A stretch of DNA of 64,000 bases. It comes from Burkholderia multivorans ATCC BAA-247 (GTDB lineage Bacteria; Pseudomonadota; Gammaproteobacteria; Burkholderiales; Burkholderiaceae). A program made the translations under genes and the position numbers. The stretch lies in contig NZ_CP009831.1 in assembly GCF_000959525.1 (NCBI RefSeq), forward strand, positions 62,001-126,000. The letters are read 5' to 3'. Position 1 is the first letter of the stretch; every line of letters begins with the position of its first letter. Shown piece by piece: positions 14,233 through 46,272 of this stretch. The notes under the pieces are model-generated. The model was not told the DNA's origin. It saw only the letters and a list, made by a program, of their open reading frames with translations, and did not search any database.

Positions 14233-14784
14233 ATGGATGTCATGGCCAAACTTCTGAACGATCAAGAATTCCAGCGTTTCTCCGAACTTCAGCAGAAGCA
14301 GGCAAGCTTCACGATCACCCCCGAAGAGGCGGACGAGCTCCGCGACATCGTCGCGCGCGCGCAGAAAAAGCGCGACGACCGCGCCGCCGCGATGCAGGCG
14401 ATCGAAAGCTACATCGAGCAGTTCGACATCACGCCCGACGAACTCTTCTCGCCCGAGCAGATCGGCGACGCGGCACGCACGTACGGGTTGATCACGGCGA
14501 CGAAGAAAGAGCGCGTGCTGCCGCCGTCGATCACGTTCAACGGCAAGCCGTATCAGTGGACCAAGACGCTGCCGGACGACGTGCGCAGCGCGCTGTTCGA
14601 CGCGTTCACGTCCGGCGAGTCGGTCAAGCGTTTCATCGCGATGCCGAAGGACACCGCGCGCTGCGCGCTGACGATCGCGCGACTTGAACGCGAAACGGGC
14701 GCCGTCTATGCCGACACGCACCTCGAGGAGCTCGCGATTTCGCGTGGTCAGGTAAACGACGCGGCAGCGAAGCTCGCGGCCTAA
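14233..14784 (+). CDS. Putative H-NS-related protein with a divergent C-terminus
   Basis: The 183-residue product is not one I can name. An alternative ATG at 14242 would give MAKLLND. The N-terminal 65 residues look helical, and a second helix ends in IEQFDITPDEL (about residues 58-68). The H-NS-like protein at 18391-18684 has IDEFDITPEEL in the same place before its DNA-binding tail. Here the tail instead reads VLPPSITFNGKPYQWTK and lacks the GETWSGRGRAP motif, so it may be a partner or antagonist of H-NS rather than a DNA binder. It is followed by a hairpin and then the 23-bp repeat array. The relationship rests on this short shared segment. Confidence 0.5.
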   Translation: MDVMAKLLNDQEFQRFSELQQKQASFTITPEEADELRDIVARAQKKRDDRAAAMQAIESYIEQFDITPDELFSPEQIGDAARTYGLITATKKERVLPPSITFNGKPYQWTKTLPDDVRSALFDAFTSGESVKRFIAMPKDTARCALTIARLERETGAVYADTHLEELAISRGQVNDAAAKLAA

Positions 14785-14815
14785 GGGACGCGCGGGGGCC
14801 CGTGCGGCGCGGGCA

Positions 14816-14863
14816 ATGCGCGCGGCGGGCGATGCGCGCGGCGGGCGATGCGCGCGGCGCGCG
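14816..14863 (+). repeat. Three tandem 16-bp GC-rich repeats
   Basis: ATGCGCGCGGCGGGCG occurs at 14816-14831 and 14832-14847 exactly, and at 14848-14863 with one change. It lies just after the stop codon of the H-NS-related gene. This looks like a simple replication-slippage tandem and is distinct from the 23-bp array that follows. Confidence 0.8.
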
Positions 14864-14882
14864 TGCCGGCTTAGGCCGGCAC
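14863..14882 (+). terminator. Hairpin downstream of the H-NS-related gene
   Basis: GTGCCGGC (14863-14870) pairs perfectly with GCCGGCAC (14875-14882) around a TTAG loop. There is no T-run afterwards, so it may be a weak or factor-assisted terminator. It separates the gene at 14233-14784 from the repeat array. Confidence 0.45.
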
Positions 14883-14913
14883 CACGCCCACCAAAACGTA
14901 CCGCGCGACCATG

Positions 14914-15230
14914 CTCCCGTAAAACCTCACCTCAATGCCAGTGAGCACTCACGTCTCCTCCCGAAAAGGCTCACCTTCGGCTCCTGCAGACCCTCACCGG
15001 CAGTTCCCGCACCCTCTCACCGCGCGGTCCCGCAAGCACTCACCGATGCGCCCGGCCGACGCTTACCGCCTGTTTTCGCTTCGCGTCGGCAGGTTCGTCC
15101 CGGAAAACCTCACCGAGCGATCCCGAAAACGCTCACTTTCGGCTCCTGCATAAGCTCACCGGCCGCTCCCGTATCGGCTCACCGTTTGGCATGGCAAATG
15201 CCCGACGCGACGCTCCTGAAAAAGCTCACC
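14914..15230 (+). repeat. Iteron-like array, 23-bp period, core CTCCYG-N6-CTCACC
   Basis: The core CTCCCG or CTCCTG, then exactly six variable bases, then CTCACC, recurs with CTCACC starting at 14926, 14970, 14993, 15016, 15039, 15109, 15132, 15155, 15178 and 15225. Weaker copies start at 14948 (CTCACG) and 15062 (CTTACC). Steps are 22 or 23 bp, with two 46-47-bp steps that each equal two periods, so about 14 register positions are occupied by 12 recognisable units. The two boxes are conserved while the six-base spacer is not, as expected for protein-binding sites rather than recent duplication. The array fills most of the gap between convergent genes (14233-14784 and 15438-17792). I found no long open frame of coding quality in it. 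The function is unknown. Confidence 0.85.
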
Positions 15231-15437
15231 TTTTGGGATCGGTCGAGGTCGCGCGAGCCGGAATGCCGGCGGGAACGTGCATCGCGGAACGACGTCGGTC
15301 TCACGGTCGCGCCGCGCCATGCCAATGATGGGTCGTGAGGCGGATCGCCACGCTCGGCCACTCCCGCTGCAGGGAAATCGAACAGCGCTCGCACGGACCG
15401 GCCCGCGCATTTGCCTCGCACCCAGCCCTCGCACTCA

Positions 15438-17792
15438 CTAAGCCTGCAGCTTCATCCTGAACCCGACGACACCGGGCTCCTCCGTCGCCGACACCTCGAA
15501 ACCGCACGATTTCGCCAGCGCGATCATCGGCGCGTTCTCGCGCAGCGCCTCGCCGACCATCCATGCGGTACCGCGCGATCGCGCGTAGTCGATGATTCGC
15601 GTCAGCAGCAGGCGCCCGAGCCCCTTGCCTTTCTGATCGGGCCGCACCGCGATCGCGAATTCGGCCGTCTCATTGTCCGGATCGCTGACCGCGCGCGCGA
15701 CGGCGAGCGTGTGCGCCTGCCCGGACGCATCGTTCACGACCGCGATGAACGCCATCTCGCGGTCGTAGTCGATCTGCGTCATCCGCGCGATCTGCGAATG
15801 GTCGAAGCTGCGTACCGCGCCGAAAAAGCGCATGCGCAGATCTTCGGGCGTCATCGCGCGCAGCAGCTCGCTGTGCGCCGGCTCGTCTTCAGGACGGATC
15901 GGACGGATCGTCACGGTTTCGCCGCGCCAGTCGAGCGTGCGTTCGAGCGCGCGCGGATACGGCATGATCGCAAGCCGGCTCCGTCCGGCCGCGAGCGCTA
16001 TGCGCGGCGCGATCACGCTGACGCGCTCCGGCGACACGCGCAACGTGAGCGACATCGCGACGACTTCGCGCACGTCGCATACGACCTGCGACAGCGCGAT
16101 CAGTGCGTCGAGCACCGGCTCGATCGGCGCGCGCCGCGCATAAGGCGAACGCGCGATCACGGCACGCGCGAGCACCGTGTTGAGCGGCGGCAGCCCGTAG
16201 ACGACGAATGGCGCCGATACGCCGTCGGCAGGCGGCACGGCGTAGCGAAACACGGGCCCGAAGTTCGAATCGTCGTACATGTCGACCGTCACGTCGACGA
16301 TCGCGGCCTCGGGCGGCTCGTCTGCCTCGCCGTGCAGACCGAAGTGGGACAGCCAGTGCAGCGCGGCGTCGCCCGTCAGCGCATGCCGGCCCTCATCGAG
16401 CATCCGGCGCGCATCGGCTTGCGCGGTCGCGATGCACGCGGCCGGATGCGAAGGCGTACCTTCCGGCGTCTGCATCAGCAACTGGCGACCGAGGTTGTAG
16501 TCGACGAGACGCGCATACGCTCGCGCAAGCCGCTGCGGCGTCGAGTGCACGGGAATGCCGCTTGCATGCAGCGCGTCGCGTGTGGCCGCATCGACTGCGC
16601 CGAAGAAGCACGCAAGCACGCCGCGATGCGCGTGCTGCCTGTTGTCGATCAGCACGCGCGCCACCGCATCGGCCGGTGCGCTGTGCGACGTCGAATGCAC
16701 GACGAACAGCGTGCCTGTTTGCGGAAACGGCGCGAGCGCCTTGACCGCTGCGGCGAAATGCTCGGGCCGCGCATCGTCGCCGAGCGTGAGCGGATTGCCG
16801 GGTGTGTCGAGATGCGGCAGCGCAGCCGACATCGCGGCCGCGACCTCGGCCGGCCATTCGGCCAATGCGACGCGCACGTCCTCGACCGCATCGACGGCAA
16901 GCTTCGCGACGCCGGCGTCGCTCGTCACGAGCGTCGCCGCGCCGCGCGCCGTGACGCGGCCGACACCGAGCGTCTCGATTTCGTCGAGCAGATCGTCGAG
17001 CGCATCGACGCGGACGATCCCCGCGCGCTGGAACGCCGCCGTGTAGAGCCCGTCGCCGGGATCCGCACGACCGGTGCGCAGCGCGAGCACCGGCTTGTTG
17101 CGCGCCGCCGCGCGTGCGGCCGACATGAACTTGCGCGCGGCGCGAACCGAGTCGAGCTCGAGCAGGATCGCGCGCGTGCCCGGATCGCTGGCGAGATAGT
17201 CGAGCACGTCGCCCGCATCGACGTCGGCTTCGCCCCCGAGCGCGACGATGTGCGAAAAGCCGAGGCCGCGTGCGTTCGCCCAGCCGAGCACCGCGTTCGT
17301 CAGCGCATTCGATTGCGATACCCATGCGACACCGCCGGAACGCACCGTATAAGCGGGCGCGCCGAAATGCGCGTGACGCGCGGGCGACAGCACGCCGAGG
17401 CTGCCCGGCCCGACGATGCGAAGCACGAACGGCTTCGCGGCCTTCAGCGCGCGATCGAGCGCCGCGCGATCGGCATCGCTGCGCGCATCGCCGACGATGA
17501 TCGCCACACGCGTGCCCAGTTCGCCGAGCTTGCGTACGATGCCGGCCCACGTCGCCGGACGCGTACAGATCACGGCGACCGACGGCGGTGCAGGAAGCCG
17601 GTCGACGTCCGGTACGACCGCGTGCCCGTCGAGCTCGCGATGCTTCGGATTGACGGGCCACACCGGACCGTCGAACGCGCCGTCGAGCACGCGCGACCAA
17701 ACCATTGCGCCAATACTGCCCGCACGCGACGACGCACCGACGACCGCAACGGACCTGGGCTGGAACAAGGCATCGAGATGGCGAACAGTCAC
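15438..17792 (-). CDS. PatZ/Pat-like protein acetyltransferase: NDP-forming acyl-CoA synthetase module fused to GNAT
   Basis: The 784-residue product has an N-terminal CoA-binding domain (PRSVAVVGASSRAGSIGA), succinyl-CoA-ligase-like domains to about residue 440, and a C-terminal GNAT domain over the last 160 residues (MTQIDYDREMAF and the acetyl-CoA loop QKGKGLGRLL). Pat enzymes acetylate lysines of acyl-CoA synthetases such as Acs and so restrain acetate and propionate activation. The N-terminal half of the ATP-grasp domain appears missing: only the YGLPPLNTVLARAVI part remains. The start is GTG at 17792 with TGGAG 5 nt upstream; the open frame extends to 17975 without a better start. Its leader carries two units of the 23-bp repeat. 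Confidence 0.8.
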   Translation of the reverse strand: MTVRHLDALFQPRSVAVVGASSRAGSIGAMVWSRVLDGAFDGPVWPVNPKHRELDGHAVVPDVDRLPAPPSVAVICTRPATWAGIVRKLGELGTRVAIIVGDARSDADRAALDRALKAAKPFVLRIVGPGSLGVLSPARHAHFGAPAYTVRSGGVAWVSQSNALTNAVLGWANARGLGFSHIVALGGEADVDAGDVLDYLASDPGTRAILLELDSVRAARKFMSAARAAARNKPVLALRTGRADPGDGLYTAAFQRAGIVRVDALDDLLDEIETLGVGRVTARGAATLVTSDAGVAKLAVDAVEDVRVALAEWPAEVAAAMSAALPHLDTPGNPLTLGDDARPEHFAAAVKALAPFPQTGTLFVVHSTSHSAPADAVARVLIDNRQHAHRGVLACFFGAVDAATRDALHASGIPVHSTPQRLARAYARLVDYNLGRQLLMQTPEGTPSHPAACIATAQADARRMLDEGRHALTGDAALHWLSHFGLHGEADEPPEAAIVDVTVDMYDDSNFGPVFRYAVPPADGVSAPFVVYGLPPLNTVLARAVIARSPYARRAPIEPVLDALIALSQVVCDVREVVAMSLTLRVSPERVSVIAPRIALAAGRSRLAIMPYPRALERTLDWRGETVTIRPIRPEDEPAHSELLRAMTPEDLRMRFFGAVRSFDHSQIARMTQIDYDREMAFIAVVNDASGQAHTLAVARAVSDPDNETAEFAIAVRPDQKGKGLGRLLLTRIIDYARSRGTAWMVGEALRENAPMIALAKSCGFEVSATEEPGVVGFRMKLQA

Positions 17793-18050
17793 ATCGGCTC
17801 CACTGGCTGACGAAACACGGCCCGACCGGCATACGGCTCCGCGCCGCACACCGATCCGCGAACCCCAAGCATAGGCGAAGGGCCCGCGGCTGCCTATATG
17901 CCGAACGGCCAGCTGTCCGACGGCCGTCAAGCCGCGCATCATGCATCGACCGGCGACACATCGCGTGCCGCGCACCGCACTGAGCGACGTGCGTGCATCG
18001 ATCGCAGCGCCGACGCATCGCGGTACATCGATACACGTGCCGCCGTCAAA

Positions 18051-18090
18051 GGTGAGGCTTTACAGGAGCGAAGGTGAGAATGTTCGGGAA
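18051..18090 (-). repeat. Two tandem units of the 23-bp repeat in the Pat-like gene leader
   Basis: On the minus strand two units follow one another: TTCCCG-AACATT-CTCACC, then CTCCTG-TAAAGC-CTCACC, with the CTCACC boxes 22 bp apart. Spacer length and box sequences match the array at 14914-15230, but in the opposite orientation on the map. They lie about 260 bp upstream of the GTG start of the Pat-like gene. Confidence 0.8.
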
Positions 18091-18354: not shown

Positions 18355-18372
18355 GTCGGTCGGTACGCGAAA

Positions 18373-18390
18373 GGTGAGGATTTTCGGGAG
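18373..18390 (-). repeat. Single 23-bp-repeat unit abutting the H-NS-like stop codon
   Basis: On the minus strand CTCCCG-AAAATC-CTCACC begins at the base immediately after the TGA of the H-NS-like gene. It is an exact match to the array core. It lies between the stop codon and the terminator, so it would be part of the 3' untranslated region. Confidence 0.75.
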
Positions 18391-18684
18391 TCAGTCGGCG
18401 ATCAGGAATCGCGTGCGGTTCTTGCCGAGCCACGCGGGCGCGCGCCCGCGGCCACTCCAGGTTTCGCCCGTCTTCGGGTTGCGATATTTCGGCGGCAACG
18501 TGCGCTTCGCCTTTGCGCTCGGCGCGCCGAGCGGCCGGAAACCGAGCTCTTCCGGCGTAATGTCGAATTCGTCGATTTTCGCCCGGATCTCGGCTATCGC
18601 GTCGGCAATCGCCTTCTCGCGTTCCTTGTCGATTTTTTGCTGAAGCCTTTCGAGTTGCACGGACAGTTGCCGGTAGGTCGCCAT
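18391..18684 (-). CDS. H-NS-family nucleoid-associated DNA-binding protein
   Basis: The 97-residue product is a compact H-NS-like protein of the Burkholderia/Bordetella (BpH3) type. An N-terminal coiled coil (about residues 1-40, QLERLQQKIDKEREKAIADA) mediates oligomerisation. A linker containing IDEFDITPEELGF follows, and the C-terminal DNA-binding motif is KYRNPKTGETWSGRGRAPAW. Such proteins bind AT-rich DNA and silence transcription. The ATG has AAGGAAT 8 nt upstream. Its stop codon abuts one unit of the 23-bp repeat and a terminator follows. Many paralogues exist in these genomes; I cannot say which one this is. Confidence 0.92.
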   Translation of the reverse strand: MATYRQLSVQLERLQQKIDKEREKAIADAIAEIRAKIDEFDITPEELGFRPLGAPSAKAKRTLPPKYRNPKTGETWSGRGRAPAWLGKNRTRFLIAD

Positions 18685-44853: not shown

Positions 44854-46272
44854 ATGAACCTGAACGACCAGATCGATGCACTCAACACCGGCGTCGATCA
44901 GCTCCTCCACGATCACCACGCTGCGCAACAGGCGGCCCGCAGCGCGGAAGCCTTCGCGCGCGCCGCCGCGGCCGAGGCCCAGGCGGCTGCGCAGCGTCAC
45001 GCGGCGGCCGAAGCCGAAGCGCAGGCCGCCGCACAGCGCCATCTCGATGCGGCAGCCGAAGCGGAAGCCGCGCAGAAACGCCACGCCGAAGCGACCGCCG
45101 CAGCCGAAGCCGCTGCGCGGCGCCACACCGATGCCGCCGCACAGGCCGAAGCCGCCGTGCAGCGGCACGCAGAAGCGACTGCGCTGACCGAAGCGCTGGC
45201 GCAACGTCACGCCGATGCCGAAGCCGCATCGCAGCGCCATGCTGCCGCGATCGCCGAAGCGGAAGCCGCCGCACAACGTCATCATGCCGCCGCGGCCGAA
45301 GCGGAGGCTGCCGCCCAGCGTCACGCAGCGGCGAGCGCCGAAGCGGAAGCCGCCGCGAAGCGTCACGCGGAAGCGACGGCCGAAGCCGAGGCGGCCACCG
45401 CCGAGGCCGAAGCGCTCGCGCAGCGTCACGCGCAGGCGATCGCCGAAGCGGAAGCGGCCGCGCAGCGCCACGCCCAGGCCACGGCGGAGGCCGAGGCGCT
45501 CGCGAAACGTCATGCGGAAGCGATCGCGGAGGCCGAAGCGGCCGCGCGCCGCCATGCGGACGCGACGGCGCAAGCGCAGGCCGTCGCGCAGCGCCATACC
45601 GAAGCGATCGCGAACGCCGAAGCCGCGGCGCAACGCCATGCGAAGGCGATCGCCGATGCCGAAGCGCTCGTCGAAGCCGTGATGAAGGATGCGATGTCGA
45701 CCGATGCGTCGGCAGCGGAAACCGGTGCGGACGCGGCAGCGCAGGCGCCGTCGGCCGACGCGGTGGCGCACGACGTGCGCGATGCACAAGAGGCGAATGA
45801 CGCGAATACGACCGACGCAACGTCGGCGAACGCCGCCACGCCGCCCGCAACTGAAGCGGAAACCGAAGCCGACGCAGCGACGGAACGCGGCACCGCAGTC
45901 GTCCCCGTCGCCGAAGCCGCCCCGAATGCGGCGCCCGCACCCGCCGACAAATCGACGCTGCACGTCTCGCGGCCGACGCAGAACGAACTGACGCTGACGA
46001 TCAACGGCGAATCGATGACGCTGCATCCGGAGCAGCTCGGCCAGCTGATCGAGGAACTCGCGCACGCGCGCGCGTCGATGCAGCCGGAGCCGCCGAACGG
46101 TATCCCGCCGGGCTGGCGCTTCGTGTCGACGAAGAATCCGATGATGGCCGTGCAGAAGCAGTCGAACGGCGATCGTCTGCTGGTCATGCGTCACACCGGC
46201 TACGGCTGGGTGCCGTTCACGTTCTCGCCGGACGTCGTGATCCAGATGTACATGCTGCTCACGCAGCGCTGA
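44854..46272 (+). CDS. Alanine-rich coiled-coil protein with 14-residue repeats and a conserved C-terminal domain
   Basis: The 472-residue product has three parts. Residues 1-46 form a helical lead-in. About residues 47-276 hold 16 repeats beginning [QKR]RH, nearly all exactly 14 residues, typically QRHAAAIAEAEAAA; one is 10 and one is 21. A low-complexity Asp/Thr/Ala linker follows (to about 365), then a distinct domain (about 370-472, including TLTINGESMTLHPEQLGQLI and PPGWRFVSTKNP). Two heptads per repeat and the Ala/Glu/Arg make-up imply a long coiled coil. It has no signal peptide or membrane segment. It lies between hpnA and hpnB. I do not know the family. Confidence 0.75.
   Translation: MNLNDQIDALNTGVDQLLHDHHAAQQAARSAEAFARAAAAEAQAAAQRHAAAEAEAQAAAQRHLDAAAEAEAAQKRHAEATAAAEAAARRHTDAAAQAEAAVQRHAEATALTEALAQRHADAEAASQRHAAAIAEAEAAAQRHHAAAAEAEAAAQRHAAASAEAEAAAKRHAEATAEAEAATAEAEALAQRHAQAIAEAEAAAQRHAQATAEAEALAKRHAEAIAEAEAAARRHADATAQAQAVAQRHTEAIANAEAAAQRHAKAIADAEALVEAVMKDAMSTDASAAETGADAAAQAPSADAVAHDVRDAQEANDANTTDATSANAATPPATEAETEADAATERGTAVVPVAEAAPNAAPAPADKSTLHVSRPTQNELTLTINGESMTLHPEQLGQLIEELAHARASMQPEPPNGIPPGWRFVSTKNPMMAVQKQSNGDRLLVMRHTGYGWVPFTFSPDVVIQMYMLLTQR
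44992..45678 (+). repeat. Coding tandem repeat, 42-bp period, encoding 14-residue coiled-coil units
   Basis: The repeats within the coiled-coil gene share a 42-bp period but differ strongly at the DNA level, so they are old or under protein-level selection. The two irregular units (10 and 21 residues) differ from 14 by -4 and +7: the first gives a coiled-coil stutter and the second adds exactly one heptad. Confidence 0.8.

Follow-up and report, generated by a model that had tools for sequence, protein, structure and literature searches.

The stretch analysed here (the ‘window’; 64,000 nt, C2:62001–126000) comes from the genome of Burkholderia multivorans ATCC BAA-247, which is held in three contigs (C1, 0.55 Mb; C2, 2.34 Mb; C3, 3.43 Mb), and our subject is a periodic array of short motifs found at 14914–15230, in the interval between two convergent genes. 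Working from left to right, we see a gene for a protein of 183 amino acids, the array itself, a longer gene on the opposite strand and, beyond this, a ‘trio’ of further sites close to a gene for an H-NS protein (18391–18684). The scores listed below come from a weight matrix trained on 16 units of the replication origin of the same contig (ori2, the origin adjoining the initiator gene repA; see below), none of which was taken from the array.

14233..14784, plus strand: upstream flanking gene, encoding a 183-amino-acid protein without a Pfam or NCBIfam match.
14914..15230, plus strand: the array, lying outside the origin; 10 recognisable, putatively RepA-type iterons plus 2 decayed units, in 22–23-bp steps with two 47-bp steps (scores 10.6–32.9).
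14914..14931, plus strand: first array unit, of ori2 grade (28.3).
14958..15044, plus strand: four units in 23-bp steps (30.0, 15.4, 10.6 and 14.7).
15050..15067, plus strand: decayed unit, with a CTTACC box and its first box displaced by one base (from reading of the sequence).
15097..15183, plus strand: four units in 23-bp steps (18.8, 24.4, 17.5 and 23.4).
15213..15230, plus strand: last unit and the strongest of the array (32.9).
15438..17975, minus strand: convergent flanking gene, with coenzyme A (CoA)-binding/succinyl-CoA-ligase-like domains and a GNAT domain.
18048..18090, minus strand: two further iterons in a 22-bp step (30.4 and 21.4), approximately 75–115 bp upstream of where the CoA-ligase/GNAT gene is called to start.
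18370..18390, minus strand: single further iteron (32.8), immediately past the stop of the H-NS gene.

An initial annotation had described the array as twelve units of CTCCYG-N6-CTCACC, held in a 22–23-bp register interrupted by steps of double length. Re-examination of the sequence confirms the array as real: its twelve CTYAC-type boxes are spaced 22, 22, 23, 23, 23, 23, 47, 23, 23, 23 and 47 bp apart, and the register thus stands (nine steps of 22–23 bp, two of 47 bp). The motif itself has to be reworded, as the literal form is present in just six of the twelve units and two units, with boxes at 14948 and 15062, have decayed; YCCYG-N6-CTCACC is exact in nine units and has one mismatch in a tenth, and the refined array motif is TCCYG-N-A-N4-CTCACC. 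The segment 15121–15184 is 83% identical to 14959–15022, which suggests an older duplication of several units within the array. Immediately ahead of the array lie 3.4 copies of a 16-bp GC-rich tandem repeat (14809–14863), and a long tandem repeat region, with periods of 42 and 84 bp, occupies 45012–45670; no Rfam family reaches its gathering score anywhere in the window. In a two-sequence comparison the 183-amino-acid protein weakly resembles the H-NS protein over a local stretch (19/48 identical, E-value 1e-5).

The motif connects the array to a second, denser cluster on the same contig. Exact matches to YCCYG-N6-CTCACC number 46 genome-wide, against four for a reversed-pattern control, and 35 of them fall within C2:76915–254057: nine in the array, three in the trio, one at 223762, 14 at 236888–238064 and eight scattered to 254057 (the other 11 being divided between C2, with one, C1, with two, and C3, with eight). 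The dense block sits directly upstream of repA, whose product matches both Rep3_N (47.3 bits; cut-off 22.4) and Rep3_C (39.3 bits; cut-off 21.1), and genes for ParA, ParB and a KfrA_N protein adjoin it; gene frames here, and around matches on the other contigs, are those of a simple caller based on guanine-plus-cytosine (GC) content. The NCBIfam RepM and RepE models match RepA only far below their cut-offs, and a PDB search with RepA returned the PI protein (E-value 0.007; weak, yet relevant) and a thermonuclease (E-value 0.69). Across 22 sampled stretches of C2, GC skew turns from minus to plus over 222–262 kb and back again somewhere in 1.29–1.41 Mb; a single sample, at 450 kb, departs from this pattern. 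The genome’s single Bac_DnaA match is on C3. Given the repA/parAB context, the turn in skew at this point and the placement of Bac_DnaA, C2 is a secondary chromosome (chromosome 2, or c2) and the dense block is its ori2, located approximately 160 kb from the array.

Elsewhere in the genome, the six matches to the refined motif on C1 and C3 are all inside called frames. We considered a crtS role for the array and rejected it, the array being on chromosome 2, not on the primary chromosome. A chromosome 1 site with the iteron motif was also rejected, given the position of these six matches within frames, though a crtS of different sequence may exist. Two of the iteron-like matches, C3:2321057 and C3:2660755, are identical and lie in two very similar genes with, by eye, the look of a phage-type DNA adenine methylase. 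Among the matches listed, four genomes share a lone iteron situated some 13–14 kb away from the ori2 block (G000:C2:223762, G011:C3:1969961, G005:C2:303190 and G001:C2:2640547); single distant sites may therefore be conserved too.

Several measures set the array well apart from chance. Allowing up to one mismatch, CCYG-N6-CTCACC has 22 matches in the window, compared with a mean of 8.18 and a maximum of 14 in 100 shuffles; between the flanking genes (14785–15437) the ori2-trained matrix finds 10 plus-strand sites scoring at least 10, against at most one (mean 0.038) in 1000 dinucleotide shuffles. Over the whole 64 kb, the ten array units (10.6–32.9) and the trio at 18.05–18.39 kb (21.4–32.8) are followed by sites scoring only 11.2 and 10.7, so that the weakest array unit is, taken alone, at background level; the other 12 of these 13 sites all reach at least 14.7. 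Rep_3 plasmid iterons are helically phased at about 22 bp, and the array combines such phasing with a match to the ori2 consensus and a Rep_3 initiator encoded on its own replicon. The ‘iteron-like’ label of the initial annotation is thereby made specific: in all likelihood, as judged from sequence, this is an iteron array for RepA, the chromosome’s own Rep_3 initiator.

Related loci allow the motif to be dissected column by column. We kept 80 of 119, a set from which records close to the window’s genome may be missing; 30 of these (L028–L056 and L062) are Burkholderia by their grouping in a midpoint-rooted tree, in which L056 has a long branch, and the other 50 (nine of them in the tree) are Paraburkholderia or Trinickia by name, save five ‘Burkholderia sp.’ records (query protein 76–80% identical). 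In the window plus the 30 Burkholderia loci, a sample of related species whose sites are not independent, anchoring on CTCACC alone (323 sites) leaves the unselected other box with 1.60–2.00 bits per column, and anchoring on TCCYG alone (340 sites) leaves the CTCACC columns with 1.46–1.87 bits. The remaining spacer columns carry 0.04–0.66 bits, in keeping with the conserved boxes and variable spacers first described, with the exception of an A at spacer position 2 (92–94%; 1.5–1.65 bits) that had been overlooked. The same loci bear on coding potential: an open frame, 14802–15338, spans the array, and its translation gives alignments of 34–45% identity in 23 of the 30 Burkholderia loci and in none of the other 50. 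As these alignments are of low identity, and as 23 bp, the length of a step, is not divisible by 3, we take the frame to be spurious, which agrees with the earlier non-coding call; a reading as clustered regularly interspaced short palindromic repeats (CRISPR) was likewise rejected by eye.

A comparison of 14 repA loci indicates that the motif changes with the RepA protein. Four loci with 84–92% identical RepA have 4–15 refined motifs each; ten with 32–42% identical RepA have 0–1. Three of these ten (39–42%) keep 14–15 copies of the looser YCCYG-N6-CTCACC, and in four (34–36%) the commonest upstream 9-mers are TTCACCTT-like repeats, akin to the CTCACC half. Our genome’s own third replicon (RepA 36%) has a TCCCATAAA repeat, matching the published c3 form (PMC4948915). 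In five other genomes the refined motif has 27–37 matches each, versus 0–1 for the control; among the matches listed, all 33 in G001 are on the repA contig, with one off it in G006 and three in G064. The initial annotation’s lead, that a transcription regulator or nucleoid protein binds the array, could draw on the nearby H-NS-type gene and on the two iterons upstream of the CoA-ligase/GNAT gene; since the motif follows repA genes, being clustered ahead of repA at ori2, and replaced or altered where RepA differs, docking of an H-NS-like protein is not supported and we rate this whole class of binder as very improbable.

A role in segregation was also considered. ParAB adjoin the same motif at ori2, which favours a centromere (parS), yet a separate 16-bp palindrome, CTTTATGCGCATAAAG, occurs six times beside parAB (variants with up to two mismatches included) and is absent from the window, and the array region (14880–15260) contains no inverted repeat. 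This palindrome is the likely parS of c2. ParB is thus an unlikely binder of the array on sequence grounds, and the chance that the array is itself a centromere seems negligible; the earlier suggestion of a ‘replication or segregation element’ survives in its first half only.

Turning to conservation, an array is present at the matching place in 28 of the 30 Burkholderia loci, with 6–21 units (a count that leaves aside units scoring below 10 or off-motif), and the remaining two loci have two units; including the window, 288 of 314 steps measure 22–24 bp. All 31 of these sources also have at least two minus-strand sites 2.5–4 kb past the 183-amino-acid gene. No unit is found within 1.5 kb past that gene in any of the 50 loci from neighbouring genera, 45 of which have the IclR gene and 49 the CoA-ligase/GNAT gene, a few displaced by several kb; the check in relatives proposed with the initial annotation thus finds an array kept within the genus and absent from its neighbours. 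In L061, L064, L067 and other Paraburkholderia-type loci a pair of minus-strand sites, about 350 bp apart, lies approximately 4.5–5.9 kb past the gene, mostly near an H-NS gene homologue, and is possibly an older counterpart of the window’s trio. A search for adjacent phased pairs, made anywhere in a genome rather than at this locus alone and blind to arrays in 46-bp steps such as that of L048, finds, by hand count over every genome searched, four or more on one strand in 51 of 65 genus genomes (our own included) and more than two on a strand in none of the 177 from other genera of the family; G221 is alone among the 65 in having none at all. In the 11 genomes with both on one contig, among the matches listed, array and repA are 134–185 kb apart and always on the same side.

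How the array arose can be read from its earliest-branching forms. L062, G006 and L056, with two units each, branch before the other 30 Burkholderia rows of the midpoint-rooted tree; the simplest story is that the ancestor of Burkholderia had a seed pair, which later grew in tandem, though units may instead have been lost in basal lines. Such growth invites the thought that the array is a relic: a RepA-binding by-product of tandem duplication, without regulatory effect. The two units of the three basal Burkholderia against 6–21 in the rest, the traces of multi-unit duplication and the empty loci of the neighbouring genera all agree with this. Against it stand boxes that are conserved beside diverged spacers, a 23-bp phase kept in 288 of 314 steps, and the strength of the two end units in 29 sources (again from non-independent species); we regard a relic as unlikely.

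These strong ends deserve a closer description. In the window plus the 28 loci with six or more units, unit scores average 27.4 for the first, 30.5 for the last and 17.6 for the 283 interior units, L055 being an exception (first unit, 18); the 29 sources share ancestry and are not independent cases, and the contrast is increased by the matrix spanning three bases after CTCACC. Tentatively, and with the odds against it, we suggest that strong end sites might nucleate a cooperative run of RepA over a weak, phased interior that fills only at RepA excess, giving a sensor with threshold-like behaviour in place of a simple sink. If true, this would be a Burkholderia-specific, purpose-built timer: a chromosome 2 cell-cycle clock that operates without a chromosome 1 site of the same motif, and whose sites, once filled, could also retard the fork in this arm or act as a tether for ori2 across 150 kb.

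Iterons are parts of origins, and a second or cryptic origin has also to be weighed. Against this, no DnaA box (up to one mismatch) is found in 14700–15500 compared with one at ori2; the minimum GC fraction over 40 bp is 0.50 in 14785–15437, compared with 0.325 at ori2; the seven neighbouring proteins scanned include no rep gene product; and GC skew does not turn between samples at 0–10 and 110–120 kb. Origin activity here is accordingly a highly improbable reading. A RepA-coated array might instead slow the fork of this arm or block convergent transcription, a suggestion that fits the position of the array within one replichore and between convergent genes. In B. cenocepacia the origin-proximal left arm of c2 is slightly under-represented and a second c2 cluster lies anticlockwise of the origin (PMC4948915), which would be the same arm if, as we infer, anticlockwise corresponds to left. 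However, the authors propose that replication is occasionally unidirectional or that the left arm initiates late, and the available text describes no step at 140 kb (PMC4948915). We found no function of iterons as roadblocks in the literature searched, and neither a promoter nor a terminator in 14600–15600; a promoter or terminator role is not supported. Fork-timing and roadblock together strike us as improbable.

We think it likely that this extra-origin array exerts negative control on chromosome 2, through RepA titration or ‘handcuffing’. The observations beneath this are the identity of its motif with that of ori2, a specificity linked to repA, conservation, phasing, strong ends and the lack of origin or centromere features; initiator-type sites outside the origin, with no origin features, are what a titration locus presents, and early replication is deduced from distance. 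In the proposed scheme, RepA monomers would occupy the two boxes of a unit, TCCYG-N-A and CTCACC, which are separated by roughly one helical turn, and the 23-bp step (approximately 2.2 turns) would let RepA load side by side. At the fork speed of B. cenocepacia (approximately 33 kb/min; PMC4948915), the fork would reach and double the array some 4–6 minutes after ori2 fires, raising the number of RepA sites early. The extra sites could then absorb free RepA, and array-bound RepA may also pair with ori2-bound RepA; either would delay re-initiation until RepA builds up, preventing a second copying per cell cycle.

Saying this, several points weigh against the proposal. RepA binding, at the array as at ori2, is a prediction from sequence, and any effect across 160 kb is argued by analogy; KfrA, encoded beside ori2, may be an alternative binder. 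Array units score on average 19.5, compared with 25.6 for 334 ori2 units of other genus members, so that interior units may bind weakly. Two Burkholderia loci carry just two units, 14 of the 65 genus genomes are without four phased pairs, and the two-unit locus of G006 lies approximately 253 kb from repA on the opposite side; the side and distance of the locus are therefore not fixed. Finally, the array is missing from the neighbouring-genera loci, and the matches listed include 88–93% identical repA genes in other genera of the family, indicating that this type of ori2 does not require an array. One further genome of the family (G187, genus g28) has its chromosome 2-type repA/iteron block (repA at 780357) and its best DnaA-domain match (4336798) on a single 6.68-Mb contig, C1, which reflects either chromosomes fused in nature or a fault of the assembly.

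Extra-origin control by initiator-binding sites has precedents. The incA locus of plasmid P1 and incC of F are arrays of phased iterons, likewise compact, through which copy number is controlled although neither is itself the origin; they do, however, lie close to it and not more than 100 kb away. Escherichia coli datA resembles the array as an initiator-binding locus outside the origin (PMC3937223, PMC6090056), but binds DnaA rather than a Rep_3 protein and promotes DnaA-ATP hydrolysis. Nearer still are the distal RctB sites of Vibrio cholerae, which bind RctB, titrate it and inhibit chromosome 2 replication (PMC3937223, PMC6090056); like the array, they are extra initiator sites on a secondary chromosome, outside the origin and early replicated (PMC3937223), whereas the Burkholderia sites form one compact phased array, 134–185 kb away, and are known from sequence. 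Du et al. (2016) reported both the c2 iteron consensus and a second c2 iteron cluster in B. cenocepacia J2315, with the same motif (ctCCCGAAAAacCTCACCTtt), on the same type of replicon and at a similar distance (140 kb), which we infer to be the counterpart of our array; in the available text it receives one line, which gives neither its sequence nor its conservation, architecture or function (PMC4948915). We found no study of the function of this second cluster in the literature searched, which left most subscription journals and bioRxiv outside it. The array has thus been glimpsed before, and its kind is known, not a new class of element; what appears new, in that same literature, is its genus-wide form and evolution.

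The timing of secondary chromosomes in multi-chromosome bacteria other than Vibrio is largely open. For B. cenocepacia a connection of c1 with c2 like that made by crtS has been deemed worth exploring, yet c2 foci sometimes double before those of c1 (PMC4948915), and a 2026 survey urges that such timers be identified in systems other than V. cholerae, with its crtS, and Agrobacterium, with its control by methylation (PMC13342612). A genus-wide array, placed at a junction of genes that is itself conserved, offers a small, deletable handle on the control of Burkholderia chromosome 2, and its natural versions with zero, two and many units allow comparison.
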